From Porticoccaceae bacterium (lineage in GTDB: Bacteria; Pseudomonadota; Gammaproteobacteria; Pseudomonadales; Porticoccaceae), in the NCBI GenBank assembly GCA_029254005.1, contig JAQWYJ010000028.1, positions 47,292-111,291 on the forward strand: a stretch of 64,000 nt of DNA. The letters run 5' to 3'. Below, in pieces: positions 2,894 to 40,294 of the stretch (position 1 is the first letter of the stretch; each line of letters opens with the position of its first letter). The position numbers were made by a program, and so were the translations under genes. Below the pieces are notes generated by a model. That model worked only from the letters and a program-made list of their open reading frames with translations, made no database searches and had not been told where the DNA came from.

Positions 2894-2967
2894 CGAACAA
2901 ACAGTGAATCCCATCATAGGTTCAGGTAAAATTAACGTCTAAATTTTTAAGTAAAGGTCTTGATCAC

Positions 2968-4185
2968 GTGCCCTCAGTTAATAAAGTTGTCTTAGCTTAC
3001 TCAGGAGGATTAGATACCTCCGTTATCGTCAAATGGTTACAAGAAGAATATCACTGCGAAGTAGTTACTTTTACCGCTGATATAGGTCAAGGGGAAGAAG
3101 TTGAGCCTGCTCGAGAAAAAGCTGAGGCCTTAGGTGTAAAAGAAATTTACATTGAAGATCTGCGCGAGGAGTATGCTAAAGATTATGTTTTCCCTATGTT
3201 TAGAGCTAACACCATTTATGAAGGTGAATATCTATTAGGTACGTCTATTGCGCGACCACTGATCGCAAAGCGGCTGATTGAGATTGCCAATGAGACTGGC
3301 GCAGAAGCTATCTCTCATGGTGCTACTGGAAAAGGTAATGACCAAGTAAGATTTGAGTTGGGAGCTTATGCGTTAAAGCCCGGCATCACAGTCATTGCAC
3401 CTTGGCGAGAGTGGGATTTAAACTCTCGAGACAAATTGATGGAGTACTGCGAAACGCACAATATAGCCGTTGAAATGAAACGCGGTAAGAAATCGCCTTT
3501 TTCTATGGATGCTAATTTACTGCATATTTCCTATGAGGGCGGTAATCTTGAGGATCCTTGGTCAGAAGCTGAAGATGATATGTGGCGATGGACAGTATCA
3601 CCAGAGAATGCTCCAGATAAACCTACCATGCTAACCATAACCTATGAAAAGGGTGATATTGTTGCGATAGATGGTAGATCAATGTCACCGGCTACGGTCA
3701 TCGAATATCTGAATAAGACAGCTGGAGCAAATGGAATTGGCCGACTTGATATTGTTGAAAACCGTTATGTGGGTATGAAATCTAGAGGATGCTACGAGAC
3801 GCCTGCGGGTACGGTGATGATGAAAGCCCATCGTGCTATTGAATCACTTACTCTTGATCGAGAGGTGGCTCATCTCAAAGATGAGCTCATGCCCCGCTAT
3901 GCCAAGCTGATTTATAACGGATATTGGTGGGCACCTGAGCGGATTATGTTACAAACGGCCATTGACCAGAGTCAAGATGTAGTGAATGGCGAGGTACGAG
4001 TTAAATTGTACAAGGGAAGTGTCAGTGTTGTTGGTCGAAAATCGGCAACTGATAGTTTGTTCGATGAGAATATTGCTACCTTTGATGATGACGGTGGTGC
4101 TTACAATCAAGCAGATGCTGAAGGTTTTATAAAACTCAATGCTCTGCGTATGCGCATTGCCGCTAATGCCGGACGGAAATTATGA
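2968..4185 (+). CDS. argG: Argininosuccinate synthase
   Basis: Joins citrulline and aspartate with ATP to argininosuccinate, the penultimate step of arginine synthesis. The 405-residue protein has the PP-loop AYSGGLDTS at residues 10-18, the [14 protein letters not shown] segment that binds substrates, and APWREWDL, all standard for the type 1 family of about 400 residues. The start is GTG ([14 protein letters not shown]), preceded by an AAAGG-type ribosome binding site. A PLP-dependent dehydratase gene follows after 21 bases and may be cotranscribed. In Pseudomonas argG also lies close to pyrC-rnt, so the neighbourhood is ancestral. Confidence 0.97.
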
Positions 4186-4206
4186 TAGTACCAATGGGGT
4201 CTTTTT

Positions 4207-5157
4207 ATGCCGCTCAGTATTGATGACGTTCGTCAAGCACGGGATCGTATAAGCCCCCATATCCATTGCACGCCGGTAATGAAAAGTTCACAAATCAACC
4301 GGCTGTTGGGCTGTGAGATTTTTTTTAAAGCAGATAATCTACAAAAAGTCGGTGCTTTTAAGGCGCGGGGGGCCTGTAATGCCGTGTTTTCTATGGATTC
4401 TAGTGAACTTGAGAGGGGAGTTGTTACCCATTCTTCTGGTAACCATGGTGCTGCCCTGGCGTGGGCGGCGGCGCTTTGCAATGCTCCCTGTACCGTGGTA
4501 ATGCCTGAAAATGCACCCCAAGCGAAGAAAGATGCGGTGGTAAGCTACGGGGCAACAGTGCAGTTCTGCAAGGCTACTATGGCAGCAAGAGAGGCTTCTG
4601 TAGCAGACATTATAGCCGAGCAGGGCACTACCTTGGTGCATCCCTATGATCAGGATTCGATTATTGCCGGTCAGGGAACTGCCGCCTTGGAGATGTTGCA
4701 GCAGGTTGACTCTCCGGTGGATATTCTCATGGCACCGGTGGGCGGTGGTGGTTTATTGAGTGGCTCAGCATTGGTGGTAAAACAATCCTCTGCTGGGGCG
4801 ATAACAAAAGTTTATGGTGCTGAGCCAGAGATGGCTGCTGATGCCTTCGAGGGGTTCAAGCGTGGTGAGCGTATTTCAACCTGCGTGCCAAAGACTATCG
4901 CTGATGGATTGCGAGGAACCTTGGGCGTCCGAAACTTTGCCCTTATTAGTGAGCATGTGGATGATATTTTCCTCACCTCCGAGGCGCGTATTATTGAGTC
5001 CATGAAATTAATTTGGAGTCGTCTTAAGATGGTGGTGGAACCTTCAGCTGCAGTTCCATTGGCTGTGATGATGGACCATGCCGACGTGTTTAAAGACAAG
5101 CGTGTAGCGATTATTCTCAGCGGAGGGAATCTTGATTTAGAGCAACTTCCTTGGTGA
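4207..5157 (+). CDS. PLP-dependent threonine/serine dehydratase (serine racemase-like)
   Basis: Fold-type II pyridoxal-phosphate enzyme of 316 residues. K52 in GAFKARGA is the Schiff-base lysine. SSGNHG at 76-81 binds the substrate carboxylate, and GGGGLLSG near residue 180 holds the PLP phosphate. There is no C-terminal ACT regulatory domain, so it resembles catabolic TdcB or eukaryotic-type serine racemase rather than biosynthetic IlvA (about 500 residues). IAGQGTAALE is shared by both subgroups. The reaction is therefore deamination of L-threonine/L-serine to the 2-oxoacid, or serine racemisation; sequence alone does not decide. It lies 21 bases after argG. Confidence 0.85.
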   Translation: MPLSIDDVRQARDRISPHIHCTPVMKSSQINRLLGCEIFFKADNLQKVGAFKARGACNAVFSMDSSELERGVVTHSSGNHGAALAWAAALCNAPCTVVMPENAPQAKKDAVVSYGATVQFCKATMAAREASVADIIAEQGTTLVHPYDQDSIIAGQGTAALEMLQQVDSPVDILMAPVGGGGLLSGSALVVKQSSAGAITKVYGAEPEMAADAFEGFKRGERISTCVPKTIADGLRGTLGVRNFALISEHVDDIFLTSEARIIESMKLIWSRLKMVVEPSAAVPLAVMMDHADVFKDKRVAIILSGGNLDLEQLPW

Positions 5158-5323
5158 TAGAAATGTCTTTTATGTGGAAAAACTGATCTTTGTAGTTAGT
5201 TAATTAAAATTTGTTAAGATCACTAGGGCGTACATTTTGTAATTTTTTAAATAGCGTTATGTTTCCTTAGATTATTTTTTGTGATTTTCATCGAAAAATA
5301 GGTGGAGTTTCGGTGGAGATGAA

Positions 5324-5461
5324 ATGTATTGCATGAATCCGTCAAAATTGCGTTGTAAAGCATGCCAGACAGCACGTTCGTGTTTTTATCCCGTTACTCT
5401 CGATCGAATCGATGCGAATTGTCTTGTTAACATTGATCCTGTTGAGTTGTGTGGCCTTTAA
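5324..5461 (+). CDS. Possible 45-residue Cys-rich small protein
   Basis: An ORF too short for the supplied track, in the gap before queD. The ATG at 5324 is preceded by GGTGGAG with about 5 bases of spacing, a good ribosome binding site. The product starts MYCMNPSKLRCKACQTA and has six cysteines in 45 residues (positions 3, 11, 14, 20, 33, 43), with one CxxC pair. I recognise no family. If real it could bind a metal; if not, it is chance reading in a leader region. The adjacent 68-codon minus ORF in the track is less plausible. Confidence 0.3.
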   Translation: MYCMNPSKLRCKACQTARSCFYPVTLDRIDANCLVNIDPVELCGL

Positions 5462-5541
5462 TTTGAAGAGTTGGCTCGGTCGGTTCGTTATCCTGTTAAA
5501 TTTGGTATAGTAAGTGTATAGATCGATACTTTGGTATAAAA

Positions 5542-5565
5542 ACCGCAAATGCTAACGTTTGCGGT
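5542..5565 (-). terminator. Perfect hairpin, terminator-like when read on the minus strand
   Basis: ACCGCAAA and TTTGCGGT form an 8-bp stem, extendable to 10 bp around a CTAA loop with one wobble pair. Read on the minus strand the stem is followed by TTTTTATACC, the form of an intrinsic terminator. No gene on the minus strand obviously ends here, so it may close a short antisense RNA from the queD leader, or it may be part of a plus-strand leader structure. Confidence 0.4.
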
Positions 5566-5569
5566 GATC

Positions 5570-5682
5570 TGGTTTAGGGGTCTGTTGGTTGTCTAAACTG
5601 TGCCGGCTGCCCACGTAAAGTCTAATTTCCAAAGAGGTTTTTGGGACGGGCGTTCTGCGGAAACCATTGATCGGTTTTTTTT
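5570..5682 (+). ncRNA. Candidate structured leader RNA with terminal T-tract upstream of queD-like gene
   Basis: Visible pairings are GTTTAG with CTAAAC (a 6-bp hairpin), a TCCAAA/TTTGGGA hairpin, and flanking GCCC/GGGC and CCG/CGG helices. It ends with AAACC-ATTGATC-GGTTT running into a T8 tract at 5675-5682, a weak intrinsic terminator 57 bases before the queD-like GTG. GGTTT at 5571-5575 could pair with AAACC at 5661-5665, which would block the terminator stem. That mutually exclusive arrangement is what a transcriptional riboswitch looks like. It does not match the preQ1-I or preQ1-II motifs that I know. Structure was judged by eye. Confidence 0.35.
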
Positions 5683-5739
5683 AGTTCTGAAATATAGGAC
5701 AATCATTTGACATGTACGACAACAAAAATGGAATAGACA

Positions 5740-6198
5740 GTGGCATATTTTTCTACTAAGCGGTATGGGCATGACATCGGTTTAACCGCTTGCTTTCGGC
5801 AACCCAAAGCGAAATCCCATTGTAGGTTCCTTCATGGTTATTCTTTAGCGTTTAAATTTACCTTCGGATGCAACTCGCTGGATGAACGTAATTGGGTGGT
5901 GGATTTTGGTGCTCTTGAGCCTCTCAAAGTTCTCTTAGAAGGCACTTTTGATCATAAAGTTGTTCTTGATAAGGAAGAGCCGTACATGGAAGATTTTCGA
6001 GCATTGGAAGATAAGGGAGTAATTGATATTGTTGTGTTGGATGGCGTGGGCGTAGAAAAGTTTGCTGAACATACATATTATTTTGCGACCGAAGTTGTCG
6101 AAGTGCTTACAGATGGAAGGTGCTGGGTCGAAGAGGTTGAGTGTTCAGAGCATGGCGCTAACTCCGCAATCTTTCGAAAGGATCGTAGGCTTGCCTAA
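5740..6198 (+). CDS. 6-carboxytetrahydropterin synthase (QueD)-family protein, variant zinc site
   Basis: A 152-residue protein of the 6-pyruvoyl/6-carboxytetrahydropterin synthase (T-fold) family. In queuosine synthesis QueD converts dihydroneopterin triphosphate to 6-carboxytetrahydropterin. Conserved here are C28 and H32 in SHCRFLHGYS, DFGALEPL, FDHKVVL, and the late glutamate in CSEHGANSAIF. Compared with E. coli QueD (AAHR...C...LHGH), two of the three zinc histidines appear replaced: F19 in ACFRQ and Y34 in LHGY. I know related annotated proteins in alpha- and gammaproteobacteria with the same FRQ...HGY pattern, so it is a subfamily and not a damaged gene. Start is GTG. A structured leader precedes it. 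Confidence 0.75.
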   Translation: MAYFSTKRYGHDIGLTACFRQPKAKSHCRFLHGYSLAFKFTFGCNSLDERNWVVDFGALEPLKVLLEGTFDHKVVLDKEEPYMEDFRALEDKGVIDIVVLDGVGVEKFAEHTYYFATEVVEVLTDGRCWVEEVECSEHGANSAIFRKDRRLA

Positions 6199-6329
6199 AT
6201 TAGTTAGTGGGTAAATGTCATTGCCTCATGGTCAACAATCGCGGCAATGCAACTTTGTCATTGTGATTAGTTTGATTAATGCTAGCCGTTTTATTTGTTG
6301 TGATAATTAATTTTTCCTTGAAGAACCAT

Positions 6330-7229
6330 ATGCACTATCAATACTTTATTTGCGATGTTTTTACTGATGTAATGTTTTCTGGTAATCCACTGGCAGTGGT
6401 TCCCTATGCCAGTGGATTGAGCGACGAACAGATGCAAAATATTGCTCGAGAATTTAATTTCTCGGAGACAACTTTCGTGCTTCCAGCACAGCAGGGTCAT
6501 ACCAGGCAAGTACGTATTTTTACCCCTACAAGAGAAATTCCCTTTGCGGGCCATCCCAATATAGGCACTGCTTTTGTTCTTGCTGAAATCGGACAGTTTG
6601 GAGGTTTCGATGGGCCTATGGAAGTGGTTTTTGAGGAGATAGCTGGATCGGTCGCCATTGCCATTGACCGCAATGACCATGGGTATACTCGCTGTGAATT
6701 AAAGGCGCCAGGTGCCTTTTGGATAGGCCAAACTGTTTCGGCCGACGTTGTAGCCGCTATTCTAAATTTATCAGTAACGGATATTGTGACTGATACTCAT
6801 GAGCCTCAGGAGGCTTCCGTAGGTCTTGAGTTTTTATGTGTAGAAATAGCTTCTTTACAAGCCTTACAGCAAGCAAAGGTTAGTGTAGATCGACTAAGTG
6901 CGTTAGTGTGCAGTGGAGTTGCCCCAGATATTCATCTGTACTGGCGCGGGTGTAATGATGTTGATTTGCGAGTGCGAATGTTTGCACCATTAGATGGCGT
7001 ACCTGAGGATGCCGCTACTGGTAGTGCCAACTGCGCGCTGATAGCGTTATTAAGCTATTATGACAATGCATCGAGCAACACTTATAGCTGGTGTATTTCT
7101 CAGGGTACAGAAATGGGTCGACCAAGTGAATTATTCGGACGTACTAAAAAGCAGAATGGGTCTGTCACTGATGTTTGGATTGCAGGTGATTGTGTCCTAA
7201 TAGGTGAGGGTACCCTTTTTTTATCTTAG
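6330..7229 (+). CDS. PhzF-family isomerase
   Basis: A 299-residue member of the PhzF/diaminopimelate-epimerase-like fold. The general acid/base residue of PhzF is present (E46 in FSETTF), as are FAGHPNIGTA near residue 75 and PEDAATGSANCAL near residue 220, the two phosphate-like binding turns. PhzF itself isomerises trans-2,3-dihydro-3-hydroxyanthranilate in phenazine synthesis. No other phenazine genes are present, so the substrate is unknown. I start at the ATG at 6330 (MHYQYFICDVFTD), which matches the family N-terminus; the track start at 6279 adds 17 residues that look untranslated. Confidence 0.85.
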   Translation: MHYQYFICDVFTDVMFSGNPLAVVPYASGLSDEQMQNIAREFNFSETTFVLPAQQGHTRQVRIFTPTREIPFAGHPNIGTAFVLAEIGQFGGFDGPMEVVFEEIAGSVAIAIDRNDHGYTRCELKAPGAFWIGQTVSADVVAAILNLSVTDIVTDTHEPQEASVGLEFLCVEIASLQALQQAKVSVDRLSALVCSGVAPDIHLYWRGCNDVDLRVRMFAPLDGVPEDAATGSANCALIALLSYYDNASSNTYSWCISQGTEMGRPSELFGRTKKQNGSVTDVWIAGDCVLIGEGTLFLS

Positions 7230-7309
7230 TTTATCTGCAGTTGCAGTTTGTTTTTCGTGATCGTATTATGCGGGCTTAATTTACATAACTTTTATTAAAA
7301 GGAAACACT

Positions 7310-7690
7310 ATGTTTAGTCATGTCATGCTAGGAGCCAATGATATAGAGGAAGCCAAGAAATTCTATGATGCTACTTTGGGTGCCATCGGTCACAGGCCTG
7401 GTGTCGTGGATCCGAAAGGCCGTTGCATGTATGTCTCTAATGGGGGTGTTTTTTTACTAACAAAACCCATTGACGGAGAGTCGGCAAGTCATGGTAACGG
7501 AAGCACTATGGGCTTTGCAGTTGATGGGCCAGAAGCTGCAGATGCATGGCATGCGGCCGGTATCGCCAATGGCGGTACGGCCTGTGAAGATGCCCCCGGT
7601 ATTCGAGAAGGAGGCGGTGTTAGTATGTACTTGGCCTATCTTCGTGACCCCTCTGGCAATAAAATTTGCGCACTCTACAGAATGCCTTAA
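7310..7690 (+). CDS. VOC-family (glyoxalase/dioxygenase-fold) protein
   Basis: A 126-residue single-domain vicinal oxygen chelate protein. It opens with MFSHVMLGANDIEEAKKFYD and closes with YLRDPSGNKICALYR, the paired beta-alpha-beta-beta-beta units of the fold. Metal ligands would be H4 and the late glutamate position, but the C-terminal strand has NKICAL where many relatives have a glutamate, so metal binding is uncertain. The AAKGG-AEDAPGIRE type loop is common in uncharacterised glyoxalase-like proteins. A good AAAGGAAA ribosome binding site precedes the ATG. A second, dissimilar VOC gene follows about 100 bases later. Confidence 0.8.
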   Translation: MFSHVMLGANDIEEAKKFYDATLGAIGHRPGVVDPKGRCMYVSNGGVFLLTKPIDGESASHGNGSTMGFAVDGPEAADAWHAAGIANGGTACEDAPGIREGGGVSMYLAYLRDPSGNKICALYRMP

Positions 7691-7795
7691 GCTTAGGTGT
7701 ACCGGTAAGGGTCCGGCTCAGAAATCGCTTTAAGTGTTTTTTGGGTCGCCGCTCTTTTACGTTTATGTAGTACGTCGAAGGTCATAAGTCTTGCT

Positions 7796-8239
7796 ATGTC
7801 CCTACAGTCTCTTTTTCATTTAGCGTTTCCTGTTACCGACTTAGAAAAAACACGTTCGTTTTATGTCGATATTCTTGGGTGTTCAACTGGTCGAGAATCG
7901 AGTCGTTGGATTGATTTTAATTTTTTTGGGCATCAGTTAGTCGCCCATTTGGTCGATCCACAAGATCATCCGGCCACTGCAACCAATAGTGTAGACGGTC
8001 ATGCAGTACCGGCATCGCATTTTGGTGCAATACTAGACTGGACAGCCTACGAACACTTCGTTGCTCGGTTAACCTCAGCAAAGGTGGATTTTGTGATTAA
8101 GCCTTATCTTCGTTTCGAAGGCCAACCGGGTGAGCAGGCGACATTGTTTGTTCGAGATCCAAGTAATAACTATCTGGAGTTTAAGGCGTTCAGGGATATT
8201 GACAGGTTGTTTGATGCAAATCTAAAAGATACCCAGTGA
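7796..8239 (+). CDS. VOC-family protein, extradiol-dioxygenase-like
   Basis: A 147-residue VOC protein starting [20 protein letters not shown]. Candidate metal ligands are H8 in LFHLAF, a central histidine in ASHFGAIL, and the glutamate in NNYLEFKAF, the H-H-E triad expected of the fold. The [16 protein letters not shown] segment is typical of a small glyoxalase-like group annotated as dioxygenases. Real activity and substrate are unknown. It converges on rnfE with only about 35 bases between. It is not a close duplicate of the preceding VOC gene. Confidence 0.8.
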
Positions 8240-8274
8240 TCCTCCTGAGACCACTAATCAATTAGTTTACCACT

Positions 8275-8988
8275 CTAGCGAATATAACCTGTTGTGCGTA
8301 CTCTTTTTATTCCTTTAACGGGTTGGCTACGTTCTTTTTTATCACGGTTGTTTTTCTCCTGATCAATACTATTTTTCAGCGCAATGAGAAAGCCAGTGAC
8401 AATAAATGCTCCTGGAGGCAACACAAATATTAGAAAACTATAGCGATCGCCAAAGGGTTGAATAAGCCATGCTTCTGCTGTGGAGCCAAACAATAGGTGC
8501 ATGTCCCTAAAGAGTGAGCCTTGGCCCAGTAGTTCGCGACTCGCCCCCAAGAGTAATAGCACCAACAGAAATCCAAGCCCCATCATCAATCCGTCTAGAG
8601 CAGCTAAACTTAGGGTATTTTTACTAGCAAACGCCTCGGCGCGACCTAGAATCGCACAATTGGTAACAATCAGTGGGACGAAAATCCCCAAAATTTGGTA
8701 CAGATCAAAGGTATAAGCCTTCATTAACAATTCTGTGATGGTAACAAATGTTGCAATAATCATTATGAAAACCGGCAATCGAACAGCATCACTGACATGC
8801 TGACGAATGAGGGATACGATAATGTTTGAGCAAATTAGCACAAGCAGAGTCGCTAGGCCCAAGCCAAGCGCATTTACTACGGTAGATGTAACCGCTAATA
8901 GCGGGCATAGTCCAAGTAACTGCACCAGTGCTGGATTATTGTACCAAAGTCCATTGCGAGTAATTTGTTGAAGCATCGTCTTACGCAT
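8275..8988 (-). CDS. rnfE: Rnf electron transport complex subunit RnfE
   Basis: Integral membrane subunit of the Rnf complex, which couples electron flow between ferredoxin and NAD to ion pumping across the inner membrane. The 237-residue protein has six hydrophobic segments and the conserved [18 protein letters not shown] at the start and [17 protein letters not shown] in the middle. The cysteines in LGLCPLL and VTNCAIL are those that hold the intramembrane iron-sulfur centre shared with RnfA. The C-terminus is a charged Lys/Arg-rich tail. Last gene of the operon; its start overlaps the rnfG stop by one base. Confidence 0.95.
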
Positions 8989-9638
8989 CAGTTATTCTCC
9001 GAAACGTCTATAGCTGTCTTTGCTGAAAATATGCGCGCATTATCTTGCTCAAAATACGTCAATGTACTAACCAGTTGATTTATGACAGCTCGGGGCGTTA
9101 TCGTAGCCCCGGTAAACTGATCAAAATCGCCGCCATGCTTTTTAACAGCCCATGCTGAGTCCGGTGTATTTTTAAGCGATCGTCCATTGAAGCTCAAAAT
9201 CCACGAACTTCGTCGAATCTCAATTTTGTCACCAAGTCCAGGAGTCTCACGGTGCTCCACCACTCGCACCCCGGCGATAGTGCTATCAGCATTGATACCT
9301 ACTAGCATGGAAATTTTGCCACTGTAGCCGTCTAGGGTAGCAGAAGGGATGATAGCTGCTATCGGGTTTTCATTACGTCGTGCAATATGAATAAACTGCT
9401 TTTTCTCAAGGCCCAACAGTGGCCAAAAACGCTCAGGGATGGGCTGAATATCCAATAAAAGATCATTGTCATGTAGATTTTTAGGCACGATTTCCAAAAG
9501 CGCTTTTTGCGCAAATAGGCGTTCTGAATAGGCAATTTTATCTGCCGTTAAACTATTGACCATTGACAACAATGCTGCAGTTATAGAGGCAGCTAAGGCG
9601 AGACCTAGGGAATTTTTAGTAATCGCTTTAAACATCAT
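8988..9638 (-). CDS. rnfG: Rnf complex subunit RnfG (covalent flavoprotein)
   Basis: A 216-residue periplasm-facing flavoprotein anchored by one N-terminal membrane helix ([16 protein letters not shown]). The FMN-binding domain carries [11 protein letters not shown] near residue 175, the S/TGAT motif whose last threonine receives FMN through a phosphodiester bond by Apb[13 protein letters not shown] is another family signature. ApbE, which would attach the flavin, is not in this window. Its start overlaps the rnfD stop by four bases (ATGA), and it leads into rnfE. Confidence 0.95.
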
Positions 9639-10702
9639 TTGTCTATCTCTTTAGCGGTTGCTCTGTGTCTCTGGCGGTGGCCATAGGTTCGAGGAAGAGT
9701 GTAGTTGTCAATAAAGGGAGCGGCAAAATTACCCAGTAATACGGCAAATGCTACTGCATCTGGATAACTACCCCAAGCGCGGATAATATATATCAACAAG
9801 CCAATTAAGGCGCCATAAATTAGTCGGCCACGGTTGCTCGTAGCGGACGAAACTGGATCTGTAACAATAAAAAAAGCACCAAGCATTGATGCACCACTGA
9901 ACAGGTGCATCACTGGAGAACCAGGGCTAGTAGAGCTGCCAGCATCCCAAAAAAGTATGGACATCAGTGTTAAGCTACCGAGCATTCCAATCGGGCCATG
10001 CCAGGTAAATATTCGAGCTTTAAGGAGTGCTAGGCCACCGATTAGAAATGCAACATTAGCCCACTCCCAACCAACTCCTGCAAAACTTGCGTTACTAAAT
10101 AGCCTGTTGTTGTTATAAATTTGTTCAACCATAAGACCCTTACTATGTTTGAAAAGATCTAGTGGCGTAGCTCCGGTAACACCGTCAATGGGAACAGATC
10201 CAGCAAATACAATCATGCAAGAATCCCAAAGTCCTGGGTGATTTATTCCTTGAGGCAGCAAACTTATAGGTGTTACCCAGGTTGTCATCTCTATTGGAAA
10301 GGATACTAAAACCACCACATAGCCAACCATTGCTGGATTAAACGGATTGGAGCCTAATCCACCATATAACTGTTTAGCAATTAGAATAGAAAATGTTGCA
10401 GCAGTTACCACTACCCACCACGGCACCAGGGGGGGTAGTGCTAAACCTAAAAGTACGGCGGTAACTACTGCACTGTAATCACCTAAATGAGTATTAATAG
10501 ATCGATTTCGTAGCTTGAGTACCATTGCTTCAGTAACAATGCAGGTTAGTGTTGAGATAAAGAGATTTAGTAGTACACCCCAGCCAAACTGGTAGCTAAG
10601 AATAAGTGCTCCGGGCAAGGTTGCCATGAGCACCAACTGCATGATTTTAGCAGTACTCTGGCGATTGTGAGTTTGCGGTGAGCTGATCTGTTTAGAGTTC
10701 AT
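9635..10702 (-). CDS. rnfD: Rnf complex subunit RnfD (membrane flavoprotein)
   Basis: A 355-residue membrane subunit related to NqrB, with about nine hydrophobic segments. DGVTGATPLD holds the threonine that carries covalent FMN. Other family sequences seen are GGLGSNPFNPAMVGYV and FIVTDPVSSATSNRGR. In the complex RnfD passes electrons between RnfG and the ion channel. The gene overlaps rnfC upstream and rnfG downstream by four bases each, so the subunits are probably made in a fixed ratio by coupled translation. The C-terminus is basic (HRQRHRATAKE). Confidence 0.96.
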   Translation of the reverse strand: MNSKQISSPQTHNRQSTAKIMQLVLMATLPGALILSYQFGWGVLLNLFISTLTCIVTEAMVLKLRNRSINTHLGDYSAVVTAVLLGLALPPLVPWWVVVTAATFSILIAKQLYGGLGSNPFNPAMVGYVVVLVSFPIEMTTWVTPISLLPQGINHPGLWDSCMIVFAGSVPIDGVTGATPLDLFKHSKGLMVEQIYNNNRLFSNASFAGVGWEWANVAFLIGGLALLKARIFTWHGPIGMLGSLTLMSILFWDAGSSTSPGSPVMHLFSGASMLGAFFIVTDPVSSATSNRGRLIYGALIGLLIYIIRAWGSYPDAVAFAVLLGNFAAPFIDNYTLPRTYGHRQRHRATAKEIDK

Positions 10703-12435
10703 TGGAGATTAATCTTCGCAAGTCGCTGTTGAGTTTTATCGACCTTTTGTTTGGCACCTTCAAGAGTGGCCTTGTGTTGAGTTTGTTGATCAAGTGTCCC
10801 AGAGTCAAGGACATCTGCAAGACGCTGCTCAGCTTCTTCTAGACGCATTTGTGCGGCGATTAATGTGCGTTCGAGTTTGGCTTTTTGCTTTTCAGGCGAG
10901 ATCTGTTTGGTCTGAATACGCAATTGTGCCGCCTTTATAATATCCTCTGCACTGGCGGTTAAAGGCGGTTTTCCAGAAACGCGCTGCTGCGCTGCATTAT
11001 TTGAGAAAAGCTTGCGAGATTCACGCTTAGACTCTCTTTGATGATCTATTTTATCTAACCGTATAGCACGAAATTCAAAGCGCTCTCGGGCCTTGAAGGC
11101 CATAGCTTTTTCCGCACGAGCAGTAAGTATGTCACCCTTACTTGTTCGATAGTGCTGTACTAAGGGTATTTTACTTGGGCAGACATAAGAGCAGGCACCG
11201 CACTCTATGCAGTCAAACAGATGATGTGCTTGCAGGCGCTCATGATTTTCTGCCTTGGCATACCAATACAATTGTTGAGGCAGTAGCGATGCTGGACAAG
11301 CTTCTGCACACAAACCGCACCTAATGCAAGGTTGAGGAGGACTACTATCGGGCATTTCTTGATGACTCACAGCTAAAATACAGGCACTTGTTTTAGTCAC
11401 AGATACATTCGTAGTTGACAGGGTAAATCCCATCATCGGGCCGCCCACAATGAGTCTGCTACAGCGTTCTCTATTAAACTCATTGAGTTCCAGTAAATGC
11501 TCGACTGAGGTGCCTATCAAGACCTCATAGTTACGATTTATGTCACATGCTTGCCCCGTTATTGTGGTAACCCGCGAAATAAGTGGTTGACCGTCAATTA
11601 CCGCACGTTTTATGGCAAAAACAGTGGCTATGTTAAGACAGACCATGCCAATATTCATAGGCAATGCACCACTTGGTAGTTCTTTTCCTGTGAGAATATA
11701 AATAAGCTGCTTTTCGCCACCAGAGGGATACTTGGTCGGGATTGATACCACCTCTATATGAGTCCCATTACAATGCTCTTGTAGCGCTTTAATTGCTTCT
11801 GGTTTGTTGTTTTCAATACCTATTAAGATAGTTTTTGGTTTACCTAAAGCGCAATTAATAACATCAATACCTCTGACGATTTCCGCTGCACGCTCACGAA
11901 TAAGCATGTCATCGGCAGTAATGAAGGGCTCACATTCGGTGGCATTAATAATTAAGGTATCAACAGATTTTTCACCATCGATCGCCAGTTTCACTGCCGA
12001 GGGAAATCCAGCACCTCCCATGCCGACTATTCCCGCTTGTGAAATGATGTCACATAGCTTGGAGGGATCAATATGTTGGTAATGGGGATATGTTGTTGAT
12101 TCAATCCACCTATCCTCGCCATCGGTGGTGATCTCGATACAGGGAGTCGGTAATCCTGAGGGGTGAGCTATAGTTCGAGGCTCAATAGAGCTTACAATGC
12201 CAGAGCTAGAGGCATGCACCGCGACGCTAAGTTTGCCCTGTATATCAGCAATTTTTTGTCCTTTGAGTACTCTGTCGCCAACTCTAACAGATGCTTTCGC
12301 CGTCTCACCAAACGCCGAATTCAGGGGCAGAACCAGCATTTTGGGGAGCGGCACTTGGCCTATGCTCATTGTCTGGGATTGGGCTTTATTATCCGAAAGA
12401 TGGACGCCACCAGGTGTTTCCCAAAGGTGTCTCAT
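10699..12435 (-). CDS. rnfC: Rnf complex subunit RnfC (NADH-binding iron-sulfur protein)
   Basis: The peripheral NADH-oxidising subunit, 578 residues from the chosen ATG. Order: an N-terminal RnfC barrel domain with [13 protein letters not shown], a Rossmann-like FMN/NADH region ([24 protein letters not shown]), an SLBB region, then two 4Fe-4S clusters in [15 protein letters not shown] and [15 protein letters not shown] Gln/Glu/Lys-rich C-terminal tail follows, predicted coiled coil, as in other gammaproteobacterial RnfC. The track start at 12504 adds 23 unlikely residues. The ATG at 12435 overlaps the rnfB stop (ATGA) and matches the family N-terminus. It overlaps rnfD by four bases. Confidence 0.96.
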
Positions 12436-30281: not shown

Positions 30282-32162
30282 GTGAAAAAAATAATAGCGG
30301 TTAGTTTATTAATCATTAGTGGTTTCGGCTACTCCCAGTCCAGTAAGGATGTTTATTTTGGAGATACTCATTTACATAGCTCCTATTCATTTGATGCATT
30401 TCTAAATAACAATCATAGTGCTGATCCAGATACAGCTTACCGCTGGGCTAAGGGACAGCCAGTAATACATCCCTACAACAGGGTGCGTGTTCAAATTAAT
30501 ACTCCATTGGACTTTTTAGTGGTATCTGATCATGCCGAAATGCTTGGTGTCATGCGTGCGGTGCGAGAGGGCACCATTATTAAAGAAGATCTTGGTTTTT
30601 TGGGTAATTTAAAACGCTGGTATGCCTTTCGATTGATGAATCAGGCGATAGATGATCGTGCAGGGCTAGCTTTTTTTGGTCAGTTTCTGCCGGAAATTTC
30701 AGATTTGAGTGCGCATTTAGATCCCGTCACTCATGCTAATAATAATATTGCTGATGTTAATATTTTTGGTGATACCAGTAAAACATCGAAGCTTGCGTGG
30801 AATGATATCGTTAATGCTGCAGAGCGGCACAACGACCCGGGCTCTTTTACAACTCTTCTAGGATGGGAATGGAGCTCTATTCCTATGGGAGCAAATCTGC
30901 ACCGCATTGTCATCACACCGGATGGTGCAGAAAAGGCCAAAAAATTTCTGCCCTTTGGTTCTGATCAGAGTCAGTATCCTGAGGATTTGTGGAATTGGTT
31001 AGATCAGACGCAAAAGGCAACAGGCACTAGGTTCTTAGCCATTCCTCATAACTCAAATATCTCTAAAGGTTATATGTTTGATGACACAACATTGCGTGGC
31101 GAGCCGATTACAGCAGATTATGCTCGGCGCAGAATCAAGTGGGAACCAATAGTTGAGGTGACTCAAATTAAAGGTGACAGCGAAACTCGCAGCGAACTTT
31201 CTCCTAATGACAAGTTTGCCGATTTTGAAAACTATGACCATTACATACAGCAGGGCAAGTCTGAGTACGTTGCTAGCGCTGCAGACTATGTTCGACCAGC
31301 CTTGAAGAAAGGTTTGGCTATTGAGGCACAAATTGGCGTCAATCCGTATAAGTTTGGATTGATAGGATCTACAGATTCTCACACAGGTCTTTCATCCCCA
31401 GAAGAAAACAACTTTTGGGGTAAAATGGCAACGGATTCAACTCCTGAGACTAAAACTCGAGGTAAAAATAGCCCAATATCAAGTAATGGCTGGAATATGT
31501 CTGCATCCGGATTAGCCGCCGTCTGGGCTGAAGATAATACTCGAGAGGCGATATATGCGGCTTTCCAGCGTAAGGAGGTGTATGCCACTACAGGTCCAAG
31601 AATTCGTCTGCAAATGTTCGCAGGCTGGGACTTCCCAGAGAGGGCAGAGCAGTCCGAAGAATTCTCTGTATTAGGCAGTCGCTATGGTGTTCCTATGGGG
31701 AGTGATTTAGTTTCAACTGATGACTCTAATAAAGCGCCAATTTTTTTATTGAGAGCTACAAAAGATCCCAAGGATGCTAACCTAGACCGACTGCAAATTA
31801 TCAAGGGTTGGTTGGATGCTGCAGGACAATTACATGAGAAAGTTTATAACATAGCTTGGTCTGGTGATCGTATGTTGAATGCTAAGGGTGAATTAGAAGA
31901 CGTTGGTAATACGGTTGATTTGAAGTCTGGACGCTACACCAATACTATTGGCCAAGCCGAGTTTTCAATAAAGTGGATAGATCCTGACTTTGACCCTAAT
32001 GTGTCCGCTTTTTACTATGCACGGGTTTTACAAATTCCTACACCGCGCAACGGTTTATTTGACAGTCTAGCATTGCAGCTTGATACACCACCGAGGGGAC
32101 CAAATACTATCCAAGAAAGAGCATATACTTCGTCAATTTGGTATCAAAAAAGCGATCGATAG
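30282..32162 (+). CDS. DUF3604 domain protein, exported (first copy)
   Basis: A protein of about 626 residues with a signal peptide (IIAVSLLIISGFGYSQ) and a full-length DUF3604 domain. Near the N-terminus is FGDTHLHSSYSFDAF, then LDFLVVSDHAE about 50 residues later, IPHNSNISKGYMF near residue 255 and GLIGSTDSHTGLSS near 365. The HxHxxxSxDA and SDH pieces look like the PHP metallo-phosphoesterase metal site, which suggests a periplasmic metal-dependent hydrolase; the substrate is unknown. I prefer the GTG at 30282 because AAGAGGTGG is spaced correctly for it; the track start is two codons earlier. A paralog follows after 30 bases. Confidence 0.85.
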   Translation: MKKIIAVSLLIISGFGYSQSSKDVYFGDTHLHSSYSFDAFLNNNHSADPDTAYRWAKGQPVIHPYNRVRVQINTPLDFLVVSDHAEMLGVMRAVREGTIIKEDLGFLGNLKRWYAFRLMNQAIDDRAGLAFFGQFLPEISDLSAHLDPVTHANNNIADVNIFGDTSKTSKLAWNDIVNAAERHNDPGSFTTLLGWEWSSIPMGANLHRIVITPDGAEKAKKFLPFGSDQSQYPEDLWNWLDQTQKATGTRFLAIPHNSNISKGYMFDDTTLRGEPITADYARRRIKWEPIVEVTQIKGDSETRSELSPNDKFADFENYDHYIQQGKSEYVASAADYVRPALKKGLAIEAQIGVNPYKFGLIGSTDSHTGLSSPEENNFWGKMATDSTPETKTRGKNSPISSNGWNMSASGLAAVWAEDNTREAIYAAFQRKEVYATTGPRIRLQMFAGWDFPERAEQSEEFSVLGSRYGVPMGSDLVSTDDSNKAPIFLLRATKDPKDANLDRLQIIKGWLDAAGQLHEKVYNIAWSGDRMLNAKGELEDVGNTVDLKSGRYTNTIGQAEFSIKWIDPDFDPNVSAFYYARVLQIPTPRNGLFDSLALQLDTPPRGPNTIQERAYTSSIWYQKSDR

Positions 32163-32192
32163 GATGATGTATAGGATCTATGGAGGCAATTC

Positions 32193-34067
32193 TTGTTAAA
32201 GTATAGTGTTATTGGTGCTTTTATACTGATCACACAGGCAGTCGTTGCAGCTTCACCTTCGGATCAGCAGACAAAAGTTTTTTTTGGTGATACTCACCTG
32301 CATTCGGCGTATTCATTTGATGCCTTTTTAAATGACAACGACTCAGCATTCCCAGATACCGCTTATCGCTGGGCTAGAGGATTACCGGTAATTCACCCCA
32401 CTAACCGTGCTAGGGTTCAAATTCAAACGCCTCTGGATTTTTTGGTTGTCTCTGATCATGCCGAATATCTGGGTGTTATTACAGAGATTCATCAAGACCG
32501 TGCTCACCTTGAGGAGCTAGGATTTTGGGCTACTTTTAAACGCTGGGTCCGACTTAGTATGGCAAGCTTTATGATTGACAGTGGTCGAGCAGAGAAGGTT
32601 TTTACCTTTGGATTGCCTAAGCCAGCCGTAGGGTCTGGCTATGATCCAGTGGCGGACCCGAATGGTGTGATGATTGATCCTGGATATGGTGATACCAAAA
32701 AAATTAGAGGCCAGGTTTGGGCTGATATTGTCGCTACAGCTGAGCGTCATAACCGCCCTGGAGTATTCACCAGCTTGATTGGCTGGGAATGGACCTCCAC
32801 CCCAGCGGGAGCTAATTTGCATAGAGTAGTGATAACTCCTGATGGAGCCGACAAAGCAACGCAATTTTTGCCTTTTGGTTCAGAGATTAGTCAATATCCA
32901 AAGGATTTATGGGCCTGGTTAGCGAAAACTGAGGAGCGCACTGGAACTAGGTTCATGGCAATCCCCCATAACTCGAATCTGTCTAAGGGATATATGTTCG
33001 GTGAGGTGACATTGGAAGGCAAAAAGATCACCGCAGACTATGCACAAACACGGATGTTGTATGAACCTATTGTCGAAGTCACTCAAATAAAAGGTGATAG
33101 TGAATCTTTACCAAACTCAACTAATGATTACTTCGCTGACTTTGAAACTTACGAACACTACCTGCAGGCGTATAGTAGTACCTATTCGGCCAAGCCTGGA
33201 GATTATGTGCGCTCTGCATTGAAAACGGGCTTATCTATTAAGAAAGACATTGGTATTAATCCCTATAAATTTGGAATGATTGGCTCTACAGATTCCCATA
33301 CCGGACTTTCTTCAGCCGAAGAAAATAATTTTTGGGGGAAGTATGCCAATGACTCTACCCCAGAAACCAAAGATCAAGCTATCATTGGGGATGCGGATAA
33401 TAATGGATGGTCAATGTCCGCCTCAGGCTTGGCTGCAGTGTGGGCCAAGGAGAATACTCGGGAAGAAATTTTTGCGGCCTTTCAGCGCAAAGAGGTTTAT
33501 GCCACCACAGGTCCGCGCATTCGCTTGCAAATGTTCGCTAGCTGGAAATTCCCTGAACAAGCTGCTACAGCTGTGGATATAGGGAAAATTGGTTATACCT
33601 ATGGCGTGCCAATGGGAGGCGATCTAATGGGCAGTGAACAAGCTGATGCACCAGAATTCTTGCTGCGTGCGGTCAAAGATCCTGTGGGAGCAAATCTTGA
33701 CCGCGTTCAAATGATCAAAGGCTGGGTGGATGCCGATGGAGTGCAGCATGAAAAGATTTATAATATTGCGTGGTCTTCTGGTCGAGAAATTGACTCTGAA
33801 GGTTTGTTGGCAATGGTTGGCGATACAGTGGATAGGACAACAGGTAATTACCAAAACACTATTGGTGCATCAGAGTTAGCTACGATTTGGGTTGATCCCG
33901 AATTTGATGACCAGCAGCAAGCTTTTTACTATGCGCGAGTTCTTCAGATACCCACCGCTAGACATTCTATGTACGATGCAATCGCGCTGCAAGCAGAGCG
34001 GCAAAAAACGGGTAAAAGTGTGATTCAGGAACGCGCCTATTCCTCGCCTATTTGGTATACCCCCTAA
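32193..34067 (+). CDS. DUF3604 domain protein, exported (second copy)
   Basis: A 624-residue paralog of the preceding gene, aligned over its whole length: FGDTHLHSAYSFDAF, LDFLVVSDHAEYLGV, IPHNSNLSKGYMFGE, GSTDSHTGLSSAEENNFWGK and RKEVYATTGPRIRLQMFA are nearly identical in both. The middle segment (about residues 100-160) is where the two differ most, which suggests different substrates on a common active site. It has its own signal peptide (SVIGAFILITQAVVAA). The start is TTG behind a GGAGG ribosome binding site. It is followed by a membrane PPIase gene after 36 bases. Confidence 0.85.
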   Translation: MLKYSVIGAFILITQAVVAASPSDQQTKVFFGDTHLHSAYSFDAFLNDNDSAFPDTAYRWARGLPVIHPTNRARVQIQTPLDFLVVSDHAEYLGVITEIHQDRAHLEELGFWATFKRWVRLSMASFMIDSGRAEKVFTFGLPKPAVGSGYDPVADPNGVMIDPGYGDTKKIRGQVWADIVATAERHNRPGVFTSLIGWEWTSTPAGANLHRVVITPDGADKATQFLPFGSEISQYPKDLWAWLAKTEERTGTRFMAIPHNSNLSKGYMFGEVTLEGKKITADYAQTRMLYEPIVEVTQIKGDSESLPNSTNDYFADFETYEHYLQAYSSTYSAKPGDYVRSALKTGLSIKKDIGINPYKFGMIGSTDSHTGLSSAEENNFWGKYANDSTPETKDQAIIGDADNNGWSMSASGLAAVWAKENTREEIFAAFQRKEVYATTGPRIRLQMFASWKFPEQAATAVDIGKIGYTYGVPMGGDLMGSEQADAPEFLLRAVKDPVGANLDRVQMIKGWVDADGVQHEKIYNIAWSSGREIDSEGLLAMVGDTVDRTTGNYQNTIGASELATIWVDPEFDDQQQAFYYARVLQIPTARHSMYDAIALQAERQKTGKSVIQERAYSSPIWYTP

Positions 34068-34103
34068 TTTGAGTGACAGAGATGTTTTACTATTGAGCGC
34101 CTT

Positions 34104-35006
34104 ATGAAAGTCCTTTACCGAAAGCTTCTCAAAGAACCCTTGATACAATTTTTATTAATTGGCCTTGCACTTTTTTTTTGCGAACGCTGGATCAATCAAA
34201 AGGATTACTCTGACGATCAATTCCGCATTTTAGTAAATGATCAAATTATTGCTCAGTTTATGCAGCAGCAAGTTAAAAAGTTTGATCCTCTGAAGGCTCA
34301 ACAGCAGGTTGAACTACTAAGTGATGTGCAGCGACAGCGCTTAGTAGATGATTATGTGCGTGGTGAGACACTTTACAGAGAAGCAAAGGCTCTGAATCTT
34401 GACCGTGACGATCAAATTATACGGCGCCGGCTGATGCAAAAAATGGATTACCTTGCCCAAGGATTTTATGATGATATTGACGCTGTCACCGAGAATGATC
34501 TCACCACATACTATAATTTAAACCAGCAGGATTACAAAAAACCATCGAGAATAACCTTTACTCATGTATACGTAGCATTTGATCAAAAGAAGCATGATTC
34601 AGAGGCTTCCGCAGCGCTTGAGGCGGGAGAAATTCTAAAAATCTTGCGAGAAAATAATATTCCTTTTGAGCAGTCTGGTCTCTATGGTCAACGGTTCCTA
34701 TATAACCGCAATTATGTTAATCGAGACGTTGATGAGATTAGCAGTCACTTTGGCCAAGCGTTTAAACAGCAGATATTTGATCTTGAGTTTGAGCGACCGC
34801 AATGGCAGGGTCCGATAAAGTCATCCTACGGGTGGCATCTAATTTTAATGACGCACAAAGAACAAGCCTATATTCCGCCACTAAGTGAGATTGGCAGTAT
34901 CGTGCTTGCGGATGTGCAACGACAGCGACAACAAAAAGTAAAGCGACAAGCAATTCAAAAACTGCAATCCAAGTATGAGATAATCGATCGAGATCAACGG
35001 CAGTGA
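34104..35006 (+). CDS. Membrane-anchored parvulin-type peptidyl-prolyl isomerase
   Basis: A 300-residue protein with one N-terminal helix (LIQFLLIGLALFFCERWI) placing the rest in the periplasm. A charged helical chaperone-like part follows to about residue 135. The rotamase domain begins SRITFTHVYVAFDQ and ends GPIKSSYGWHLILM, the parvulin signature. It resembles SurA/PpiD-type folding factors but is much shorter. Its stop overlaps the HupE-like GTG start by four bases (GTGA), so the two are made together. It may fold the exported DUF3604 proteins or the membrane partner; that is inference from position. Confidence 0.82.
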   Translation: MKVLYRKLLKEPLIQFLLIGLALFFCERWINQKDYSDDQFRILVNDQIIAQFMQQQVKKFDPLKAQQQVELLSDVQRQRLVDDYVRGETLYREAKALNLDRDDQIIRRRLMQKMDYLAQGFYDDIDAVTENDLTTYYNLNQQDYKKPSRITFTHVYVAFDQKKHDSEASAALEAGEILKILRENNIPFEQSGLYGQRFLYNRNYVNRDVDEISSHFGQAFKQQIFDLEFERPQWQGPIKSSYGWHLILMTHKEQAYIPPLSEIGSIVLADVQRQRQQKVKRQAIQKLQSKYEIIDRDQRQ

Positions 35007-36007
35007 GCCTTCGTTTATTTTTAACACTTTGGGTTTTATCTATTGTGACATCAGCAATGGCTGATGAGGCGCGACCGGTATATGTCGAAATTACTCAAAC
35101 ATCGCCACTGAATTATCTGCTTAAGTGGAAGATTCCTCCGGTTATGGCATCGGGAAAAGAGCCAATTATTAGCCTTAAACATGCCGACTGTAAGGTAACT
35201 GATGGCAGTTTTCAGTCTCAACAGGTACTTTTAGGTCGGCAGTTGTATCAGTGCACTCAGCCTAATGTGAGTTTTAAAGTGCACATAGATTATCCCGATG
35301 GTAATCCTGCACTGACATCACTAGTCGTATTTACTAGTTTGACTTCTCAGCCACAACAGGTTTTTTCAGGCCCTGAGTTAAGCATTATTCCAATAGGGCC
35401 AAAAGCAGTGCCGGCCTCAGTAGTCAGGCAATATACTCAGGCTGGCGTAGTGCATATTTTAGTTGGCATTGATCACTTGTTATTTGTTCTCTGCCTGATG
35501 GTTATTGCAGATAACTTTAAACGCTTAGTGTTAACTGTGACAGGATTTACGGTTGCGCATTCGATTACTTTGAGTCTTGCGACCCTAAATATCATTGAAG
35601 TTAGAACGGAATTGGTAGAAACTTTAATTGCACTAAGTATTCTGTTATTGGCAGTGGAAATTACCAATCAACGACGATCACCCTCGCAAAAAAGTTTTAC
35701 TTGGAGACATCCTGTATCTGTATCCTCAGGATTTGGATTACTTCACGGCTTTGGTTTTGCTGTCGTGCTTCAAGATCTGGGTTTACCTGAATCGATGAAA
35801 ATTCAAGCTTTGTTGTTTTTTAATGTCGGTGTTGAGATCGGCCAGATACTATTTATCGTGGCAATGTTGGCACTGTATTGCGGCGCTACGCAACTTAGTC
35901 CTTATATTGCAACGCAACGGCAACGCCTAATTGACTTAGGTATTTACTCTATTGGTTGTTGCAGTGCATTTTGGTTACTCTCTCGAAGTGTGCTGCTACT
36001 GCCGTAG
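35003..36007 (+). CDS. HupE/UreJ-type membrane protein
   Basis: A 334-residue protein with a signal peptide (LFLTLWVLSIVTSAMA), an extracytoplasmic beta-rich part to about residue 145, then about six membrane helices. GVVHILVGIDHLLFVLCLM, FTVAHSITLSLATL and SSGFGLLHGFGFAVVL have the paired histidines of HupE/UreJ transporters, proposed to bind nickel or cobalt. No hydrogenase or urease genes are near, so the cargo may be another metal for the DUF3604 proteins, which carry a metal-site-like motif. GTG start overlapping the PPIase stop. Last gene of the cluster; suhB is convergent. Confidence 0.82.
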   Translation: MSLRLFLTLWVLSIVTSAMADEARPVYVEITQTSPLNYLLKWKIPPVMASGKEPIISLKHADCKVTDGSFQSQQVLLGRQLYQCTQPNVSFKVHIDYPDGNPALTSLVVFTSLTSQPQQVFSGPELSIIPIGPKAVPASVVRQYTQAGVVHILVGIDHLLFVLCLMVIADNFKRLVLTVTGFTVAHSITLSLATLNIIEVRTELVETLIALSILLLAVEITNQRRSPSQKSFTWRHPVSVSSGFGLLHGFGFAVVLQDLGLPESMKIQALLFFNVGVEIGQILFIVAMLALYCGATQLSPYIATQRQRLIDLGIYSIGCCSAFWLLSRSVLLLP

Positions 36008-37813: not shown

Positions 37814-38290
37814 ATGAGATTGACAGCTAAAGGACGCTACGCTGTGACCGCAATGCTAGATTTGGCGTTGCACGCAGATTCTGGTCCGATTTCCCTGCCA
37901 GAGATTTCGGTGCGCCAAACGATATCGTTATCGTATTTGGAGCAGCTATTTGCAAAGCTGAGAAAAGCAGGCTTGGTTTTAAGTGTCAGAGGCCCCGGCG
38001 GTGGCTACCATTTGGTTGATACGCCTGAGAATATCTGTGTGGCCCAGATTATCGATGCTGTGAATGAGTCTGTAGATACGACAAGTTGTAAAGGTAAAGG
38101 AGATTGTCAAGGGGGTAGCATGTGCCTCACTCATCACCTTTGGGATAACTTAAGTGATCAGATTCATGGTTTTTTAAGTGATATCTCGCTGTTGGATCTA
38201 ATGGCCAAGCGGGATGTAAAAAATATAGCGCAACGCCAAGTAGCGCAATTACTAACCTTGAATGAAAGCATACAACCCAATGTTTGTTAA
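37814..38290 (+). CDS. iscR: Iron-sulfur cluster regulator IscR
   Basis: Rrf2-family transcription factor, 158 residues, with an N-terminal winged helix ([20 protein letters not shown]...RGPGGGYHL). C92, C98, C104 and H107 hold a 2Fe-2S cluster, in exactly the E. coli positions. With the cluster it represses the isc operon; apo-IscR controls a second set of sites. A consensus operator sits in the operon promoter upstream. First gene of iscRSUA-hscBA-fdx. Confidence 0.97.
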
Positions 38291-38303
38291 CGTGGAGTAA
38301 TTA

Positions 38304-39518
38304 ATGAGTCTTCCGATCTACCTAGATTACGCATCTACAACCCCTGTTGATCCAGTTGTTGCAGAAAAAATGATGGAATTCATGACCCCAGCTGGGCACT
38401 TTGGTAACCCCGCATCCCGATCTCATATGTTTGGTTGGCATGCTGAAGCCGCAGTAGAGGATGCACGACAAGATGTCGCTACCCTTATCGGTGCAGACTC
38501 TCGTGAAATTGTCTGGACGTCCGGAGCAACCGAAGCCAATAACCTTGCGATTAAAGGCTGTGCCCATTTTAATCAACGCAAAGGTAAGCACATTATTACC
38601 TCACGGATTGAGCATAAAGCGGTATTGGACACCTGCCGACAGTTGGAGCGAGAAGGTTTTGATGTAACCTATCTTGATCCTGATAGTAGTGGTTTAATTC
38701 AGCCTGAAATGGTGGCGGAGGCAATCAGAGAAGACACCACAATAGTGTCGATTATGCATGTTAATAACGAGTTGGGTACGCTCAATGATATTGGTGCAAT
38801 AGGTAAGCTTTGTCGACAACATAAAATTATATTCCATGTGGATGCAGCTCAAAGTGCCGGCAAGACACCGATAAACGTAGAAGAAATGTTTGTTGATATG
38901 ATGTCGTTTTCAGCACACAAGATCTATGGTCCCAAAGGTATAGGGGCGCTGTTTGTCAGGCGTAAGCCTCGAGTCAGAATTGAAGCACAAATGCATGGCG
39001 GAGGTCATGAGCGAGGTATGCGATCTGGGACACTACCGACACATCAAATTGTAGGCATGGGTCAGGCATTTAAGATTGGATTTGAGACGCTAGAGGCTGA
39101 GACTGCTAGAATAACAGCTTTGCGTGCTCGCTTGTGGGATGGCGTAGTCGATATGGAAGAGGTGCATCTAAATGGCTCAGATAATCAACACGTACCCGGA
39201 ATTGTCAATATTAGCTTTGCTTTTGTAGAGGGCGAGTCTTTGATGATGGCGCTGCGCAATCTGGCAGTTTCATCTGGATCAGCGTGTACATCAGCGAGTT
39301 TAGAGCCGTCCTATGTTTTGCGAGCGTTGGGCCTTAATGATGAAATGGCCCATAGTTCCATTCGATTTAGCATTGGCCGTTATACCACTGAGGAAGATAT
39401 TGACGCTGCAATTGCACAGGTTCGAGTTGCTGTTGAGAAATTGCGCTTACTATCGCCTTTGTGGGACATGTTTAAGGCAGGTATCGATCTAAATACGGTA
39501 CAATGGTCAGCACACTAA
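38304..39518 (+). CDS. iscS: Cysteine desulfurase IscS
   Basis: PLP enzyme, 404 residues, that removes sulfur from cysteine as a persulfide and hands it to IscU and to tRNA thiolation. K206 in [12 protein letters not shown] binds PLP and C328 in [15 protein letters not shown] carries the persulfide, the same numbers as E. coli IscS. It starts 13 bases after iscR with GTGGAG upstream. The 59-base gap to iscU contains a weak hairpin TTCAG-GCAGT-CTGAA, possibly a processing site. Confidence 0.97.
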
Positions 39519-39577
39519 GGCAAAGCGTTCAGGCAGTCTGAATGTGACAATTTTTGTAAACAACAGGAGTCATCAGT

Positions 39578-39961
39578 ATGGCTTACAGTGAAAAAGTTAT
39601 AGATCATTATGAAAACCCTAGAAACGTTGGCCAACTTGATGAGAGTTCGAAAAATGTCGGTACCGGCATGGTAGGAGCTCCCGCTTGTGGAGACGTTATG
39701 CGTCTCCAAATCAGAGTCAATGATGAGGGTGTCATCGAAGATGCGAAATTTAAGACCTACGGATGCGGGTCAGCCATAGCATCGAGTTCTTTGTTAACAG
39801 AATGGGTGAAAGGTAAACATCTAGATGATGCAGAGCAAATTAAAAATACTCAGATTGCCGAAGAACTGGCGCTACCTCCAGTGAAGATTCATTGCTCTGT
39901 TTTAGCTGAGGATGCGATCAAGTCAGCAGTTCGTGATGTCAGAGAAAAACAAGGGAGTTAA
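39578..39961 (+). CDS. iscU: Iron-sulfur cluster scaffold IscU
   Basis: The 127-residue scaffold on which the nascent 2Fe-2S cluster is built. C37 and D39 in PACGDV, C63 in YGCGSAIA and C106 in KIHCSVLA are the cluster ligands. LPPVK at 99-103 is the motif recognised by the HscA chaperone, whose gene is two genes downstream. All ligands and the chaperone motif are intact. A strong ACAGGAG ribosome binding site precedes it. Confidence 0.98.
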   Translation: MAYSEKVIDHYENPRNVGQLDESSKNVGTGMVGAPACGDVMRLQIRVNDEGVIEDAKFKTYGCGSAIASSSLLTEWVKGKHLDDAEQIKNTQIAEELALPPVKIHCSVLAEDAIKSAVRDVREKQGS

Positions 39962-39970
39962 TGCTCTTTT

Positions 39971-40294
39971 ATGGCAATAACTATGACTTCAGCTGCCCAG
40001 CAGCACGTTCGTAAACATCTTGAGCACAGATCGTCAGGTTTGGGTGTGCGTTTAGGTGTGCGAACAACTGGCTGCTCTGGGTTGTCTTATGTCTTAGAGT
40101 TTGTTGATGAGGCGACTTCAGGTGATCAGATTTTTGATTTTGAAGGCATCAAACTAATCATTGATGTGAAAAGCTTACTCTATCTTGATGGTACTCAGTT
40201 AGATTACGTCAAGGAAGGATTGAACGAGGGCTTTGAATTTAAAAACCCCAACGTCAAGGATGAGTGTGGTTGTGGAGAAAGCTTCCACGTGTGA
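39971..40294 (+). CDS. iscA: Iron-sulfur assembly protein IscA
   Basis: An A-type carrier of 107 residues. The three conserved cysteines are C35 in TTGCSGLSY and C99/C101 in DECGCGESF. IscA passes clusters from IscU to targets, mainly 4Fe-4S enzymes under aerobic conditions; IspG, RlmN and the Rnf subunits in this window are plausible clients. It follows iscU by nine bases. Confidence 0.97.

Follow-up and report, generated by a model that had tools for sequence, protein, structure and literature searches.

The window analysed here is a stretch of 64,000 nucleotides from a Porticoccaceae bacterium (assembly GCA_029254005.1, contig JAQWYJ010000028.1, positions 47,292 to 111,291), and it carries four consecutive genes on the forward strand. 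The first two encode DUF3604 proteins, copy 1 (30282..32162; GTG start, with an alternative GTG at 30276) and copy 2 (32193..34067; TTG start), which match PF12228 over the full model with E-values of 1.6e-230 and 9.1e-225, respectively. They are followed by a parvulin-type peptidyl-prolyl isomerase, called PPI (34104..35006; ATG start; Rotamase_2 E 1.1e-13), and by a HupE-like membrane protein (35003..36007; HupE_UreJ_2 E 1e-45), whose GTG start overlaps the TGA of the parvulin gene. Gaps of 30 and 36 bases separate the first three genes, and the last two are joined through the GTGA overlap. This layout is as it had been given in an earlier note on this DNA, and Pfam confirms with very strong scores the two full-length DUF3604 proteins, the parvulin and the HupE_UreJ_2 protein that the note had named.

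Both DUF3604 copies belong clearly to the family (767 and 748 bits against a PF12228 cut-off of 20.4), and neither receives a name in an NCBIfam search. Their N-termini carry Sec-type signal peptides, as judged by eye, and in copy 1 the signal peptide is followed by a predicted PHP-like domain (residues 23-430 approximately) and a C-terminal beta-sandwich (approximately 440-622). The HxHxxxSxDA and SDH motifs listed in the earlier note are present in both copies. In copy 1, PHP motif I, HLH (H30 and H32; 30369..30377, forward strand, as for the following motifs), and motif II, DH (D83 and H84; 30528..30533), which hhalign pairs with motif II of PHP proteins, are invariant in 76/76 DUF3604 sequences. 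In the last motif, DSH (D365 and H367; 31374..31382), D365 is invariant and H367 is His in 75 of the 76 proteins, the remaining one having X. The residues invariant across this alignment are thus H30, H32, D38, D83, H84, E196, H207, H256 and D365, and copy 2 has a ligand set identical to that of copy 1.

The ten ligand-type residues of DUF3604 pair one to one, with their order kept, with residues of TrpH/RNase AM-type PHP proteins that are all invariant (nine aligned): H14, H16, D21, D45, H46, E71, H82, H198, D255 and H257. The E-x10-H spacing is identical in the two alignments, and the ordered motifs of the PHP superfamily (HxH, DH, E..H, H, DxH) are all found in DUF3604. TrpH and RNase AM (YciV), PHP phosphoesterases with the same ordered set of ligand-type residues, differ from DUF3604 in being proteins of about 290 amino acids without an export signal or a C-terminal beta-sandwich. 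The two DUF3604 copies are 60% identical overall, and their identity is lowest at residues 115-154 (10/40 identical), within the region, residues 100-160, where the earlier note had placed their main difference.

An AlphaFold2 model of copy 1, built from the 76-sequence alignment in place of a weaker 18-sequence model (pLDDT 79.8), has a mean pLDDT of 94.2 and a pTM of 0.93, and consists of a PHP-like domain and a C-terminal beta-sandwich. A structure prediction followed by a search for metal-site similarity to PHP or amidohydrolase folds was among the checks proposed in the earlier note, and Foldseek matched this model to the PHP domain of RNase AM (7ug9, probability 0.97) and to a PHP phosphoesterase (3o0f, probability 0.92); most of the remaining matches were beta-sandwich proteins, consistent with the C-terminal domain. 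The alignment of DUF3604 with PHP by hhalign extends across motifs I and II (probability 73, E 3e-5), with a similar result from a deeper alignment. A sequence search of the PDB gave no convincing homologue of DUF3604.

The NCBIfam model CehA_McbA_metalo (NF038032) is weakly matched by 62/76 DUF3604 members (best E 8e-7), none of those tested reaching its curated cut-off of 80 bits, and one protein (L057) matches the DUF3604 and CehA/McbA models alike. The CehA/McbA group comprises carbaryl and carbofuran hydrolases that cleave carbamate esters, one of them reported to be periplasmic, and His313, His315, His453 and His495 are important in CehA (PMC8292978). Both groups are exported and use HxH ligands, hydrolysis being predicted in the case of DUF3604, and hhalign aligns a region common to them after the DxH motif (REAIYAAFQRKEVYATTGP). 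CehA-like proteins differ in their N-terminal architecture, which includes a beta-propeller or other domains. The genome studied here also encodes a CehA/McbA-type metallohydrolase that is joined to a TolB-like beta-propeller in one protein (L226, G000:C10, about 4783-5790).

From the ligand pattern, the predicted fold and the family-model matches, we conclude that DUF3604 is probably a group of exported metallohydrolases of the PHP type that branches near CehA/McbA. The suggestion in the earlier note of a metal-dependent exported hydrolase is well supported by the PHP-type ligand set and the modelled fold, and a database-level placement of DUF3604 in the PHP fold may already exist. Judging from the CehA/McbA and PHP relatives, the bond that DUF3604 would cleave, in a small molecule outside the cytoplasm, is most probably of the ester, amide, carbamate or phosphoester type. 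The best PHP fold matches are a phosphoesterase and RNase AM, and DUF3604 could process phosphoesters, as a phosphatase or phosphodiesterase, instead of carbamates, esters or amides. We consider this narrower assignment rather unlikely, although it is compatible with the helper functions discussed below; the family-model matches favour CehA/McbA, and the PHP fold alone is silent on the bond that is cleaved.

The profile of the PPI subfamily matches PDB chains of PEB4/CBF2, HP_0175, PrsA and SurA, all of which resemble it in having an N-terminal helical part and a single parvulin domain. The window protein has the architecture of the SurA/PrsA type, a parvulin domain with an N-terminal chaperone region, and an N-terminal hydrophobic segment suggests that it is anchored in the membrane. 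We propose that it is a membrane-anchored periplasmic foldase of the SurA/PrsA type, with predicted isomerase or foldase activity. Unlike these general foldases, PPI appears to be membrane-anchored and is linked in an operon to one enzyme family.

The HupE-like protein matches HupE_UreJ_2 (PF13795) with 155.6 bits against a cut-off of 24.5. The motif HX5DH (H144/D150/H151), a hallmark of HupE, is invariant together with two further His in 20/20 relatives, and both the profile and the motif place the protein in HupE/UreJ-2. Its architecture, an exported N-terminal domain followed by a HupE/UreJ-2 membrane domain, is similar to that of anglerases, and Ang-1 anglerase-HupE/UreJ-2 proteins likewise combine a signal peptide, an exported domain and the HupE_UreJ_2 membrane domain. 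The exported domain of anglerase binds Cu and Ni via His1 (PMC12537917, Nat Commun 2025), and a His directly after the signal peptide cleavage site is reported to be 100% conserved in Ang-1 (PMC12537917). In the window protein the predicted first mature residue (35063..35065, forward strand) is Asp; this position, column 14 of the alignment, is His in 13/20 relatives, as in Ang-1, and Asp in 7/20. An identity with Ang-1 was rejected on this ground, and the exported domain also appears shorter than that of Ang-1. The His1 that defines Ang-1 is replaced in the window protein, and the metal preference of the HupE-like protein may be different. No sequence match to PDB chains was obtained, although structure 9GCE is reported for RbAng-1a (PMC12537917), and the main text of that paper makes no mention of an isomerase or of DUF3604.

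The gene-neighbourhood search proposed in the earlier note found the co-occurrence of DUF3604, parvulin and HupE_UreJ_2 conserved. In a class sample of 273 genomes from 222 genera, the PPI subfamily is present in 14 genomes, 13 of which also carry DUF3604 (table [[13,1],[4,255]]; Fisher p about 6e-18); conversely, PPI is found in 13/17 genomes with strong DUF3604 matches, and HupE adjoins PPI in 12/14. In a sample of the window's own family, DUF3604 lies within 4 kb of 47/96 HupE_UreJ_2 loci, where uniform placement would predict about 1. When HupE types are told apart by score and frame length, the PPIase-linked type is found in 53/57 genomes of this sample with DUF3604 and in 0/41 without it. 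In a phylum sample, PPI and/or HupE stand within 1.5 kb of DUF3604 in 15/20 DUF3604 genomes. The linkage to PPI or HupE was also observed in 27/80 named loci, the remainder being solo DUF3604 copies or contig ends, and the linked loci include Marinobacter, Marinobacterium, Kordiimonas, Amphiplicatus, Croceibacterium and deltaproteobacterial records. The order is mostly DUF3604-PPI-HupE, with PPI-HupE-DUF3604 at two loci (L277, L278) and a convergent arrangement at another (L260). The recurrence of the operon across Proteobacteria indicates that it is probably a real enzyme-plus-helper system.

Some PPI-HupE pairs have other neighbours. Two divergent pairs stand beside an FMO-like monooxygenase or a 2-oxoglutarate-Fe(II) oxygenase instead of DUF3604 (L243, G072:C37; L244, G028:C28), and from these neighbours the pair may serve other metalloenzymes too. 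At two further loci (L241, G005; L242, G017), a gene of the Na+/H+ antiporter family precedes the pair where DUF3604 otherwise stands.

Many DUF3604 genes are solo copies. The idea that genomes with such copies are devoid of the helpers was mostly rejected, given that 10/12 of those tested carry PPI elsewhere, and the PPI loci of these genomes studied in detail mostly have HupE and another DUF3604 alongside. Operon-linked DUF3604 proteins are dispersed over the DUF3604 tree. The presence of one PPI and 14 DUF3604 matches in a single genome suggests that PPI and HupE form an accessory pair common to several DUF3604 paralogues per genome. The earlier note had proposed a folding factor dedicated to the tandem pair; the link to the DUF3604 family is supported by co-occurrence, and the foldase seems to be shared by several paralogues rather than reserved for these two copies.

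The tandem pair described in the earlier note was rejected as a defining feature, because most relatives have one DUF3604 per operon and pairs arose repeatedly. In the tree, copy 1 and copy 2 fall into different clades, each covering two genera, which suggests that their duplication predates the split of these genera. The tandem pairs of Marinobacter/Marinobacterium and of loci L126, L134, L127 and L168 group differently, indicating separate origins.

On contig C40 of the genome that contains the window there is a second, distant PPI-HupE-DUF3604 cluster, and contig C136 carries a solo DUF3604. In the C40 cluster (L258, G000:C40:19000-32092; 975-11059), genes for a TonB receptor, the parvulin, a short SurA_N-like protein, the HupE-like protein and a distant DUF3604 are followed by genes for an SDR-family protein and an epimerase. 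The solo copy (L259, G000:C136:1-12000) has as neighbours three amine-oxidase-like flavoproteins, a GcvT-like protein, a GFA-domain protein and a cupin, and the locus resembles a gene cluster for catabolism that includes an exported hydrolase. Neighbours of solo DUF3604 genes in general are often catabolic (acyl-CoA dehydrogenase, P450, CoA ligase, CoA transferase), an observation that carries little weight.

The operon of the window is flanked by an amino-acid permease gene on one side and by housekeeping genes on the other, and the flanking order is the same in relatives. Shared gene order with contigs named Porticoccaceae (L096-L098, L100) assigns the window to this gammaproteobacterial family. 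Shortly downstream, at 37814-40294, are genes of the IscR, IscS, IscU and IscA types for iron-sulphur cluster assembly, named by eye from their translations and regarded as ordinary housekeeping. Promoter and terminator scans of the window gave matches no more numerous than in shuffled sequence, so that transcription as a single operon is argued for by spacing and conservation.

We give about an even chance to the interpretation that these genes specify a periplasmic metallohydrolase system, in which a foldase and a metal-handling permease assist PHP-type DUF3604 enzymes. The signal peptides indicate that the DUF3604 proteins would be exported to the periplasm. At the inner membrane, the membrane-anchored parvulin would aid the folding of these large two-domain enzymes. 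The HupE-like permease, via its exported N-terminal domain, would capture or move a transition metal for their multi-metal site, either by direct hand-over from the exported domain or by HupE running outward. We infer the folding help and the metal handling from family membership and co-occurrence; co-occurrence and copy number suggest, in addition, that both helpers would serve the cell's DUF3604 paralogues in trans. More tentatively, one parvulin and one HupE-type permease could constitute a dedicated periplasmic maturation machine that folds and metallates the DUF3604 enzymes of a cell, by analogy with the accessory systems of nickel enzymes, but outside the cytoplasm.

Several observations weigh against the periplasmic metallohydrolase system. 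The PHP matches in Foldseek have E-values of about 0.006, none being below 0.001, and TM-scores by target of 0.39-0.50, so that they support the fold without proving it. None of the 76 members matches Pfam PHP (PF02811), even with an E-value limit of 1, and membership in that Pfam family is accordingly not claimed; the comparison of DUF3604 with CehA/McbA by hhalign is also weak (probability 3.5-5.4). PPI was not detected in four DUF3604 genomes of the class sample, which are drafts, two of them 72-81% complete, nor in two of the genomes with solo copies. The main gap is that the HupE proteins known so far carry metal into the cytoplasm, whereas DUF3604 would be periplasmic.

In a different proposal, the enzyme serves the transporter: DUF3604 would hydrolyse an extracellular compound that binds or masks metal, the exported domain would catch the ion and HupE would import it. 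HupE relatives are nickel importers, the model for anglerase is one of capture and import (PMC12537917), and a TonB receptor gene lies upstream of the second cluster, on C40, in the same genome. Such a role in metal acquisition is nevertheless improbable in our view, given the many DUF3604 copies for each PPI-HupE pair and the solo genes that often stand amid catabolic genes without HupE; moreover, an Rfam search of the window found no riboswitch or other Rfam element, and the parvulin is left unexplained. It is equally doubtful that DUF3604 is a CehA/McbA-like catabolic hydrolase linked to a general envelope helper merely through the shared ecology of marine heterotrophs, because, despite PPI-HupE pairs without an adjoining DUF3604 (L246, L247, L250, L253) and the many catabolic genes that these lineages have in common, the genes are adjacent, their order mostly unchanged, in records from Alpha-, Gamma- and deltaproteobacteria, and DUF3604 accompanies PPI in nearly every genome of a sample that spans so many genera.

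The earlier note knew of no established function for DUF3604, and our literature search, whose coverage excluded most subscription journals and does not prove absence, agrees with it, having found one passing mention of DUF3604, none of PF12228 and no description of the system, nor any paper that links HupE to a peptidyl-prolyl isomerase in this sense. DUF3604 is thus a widespread family essentially without literature, and it can now be given a probable superfamily and a location, together with predictions of its active site and of two partners, which makes its function directly testable. If the helper interpretation is true, the system would show how a family of periplasmic multi-metal enzymes is folded and loaded with metal, and HupE/UreJ-2 permeases would gain a role beyond the uptake of nickel for cytoplasmic enzymes.

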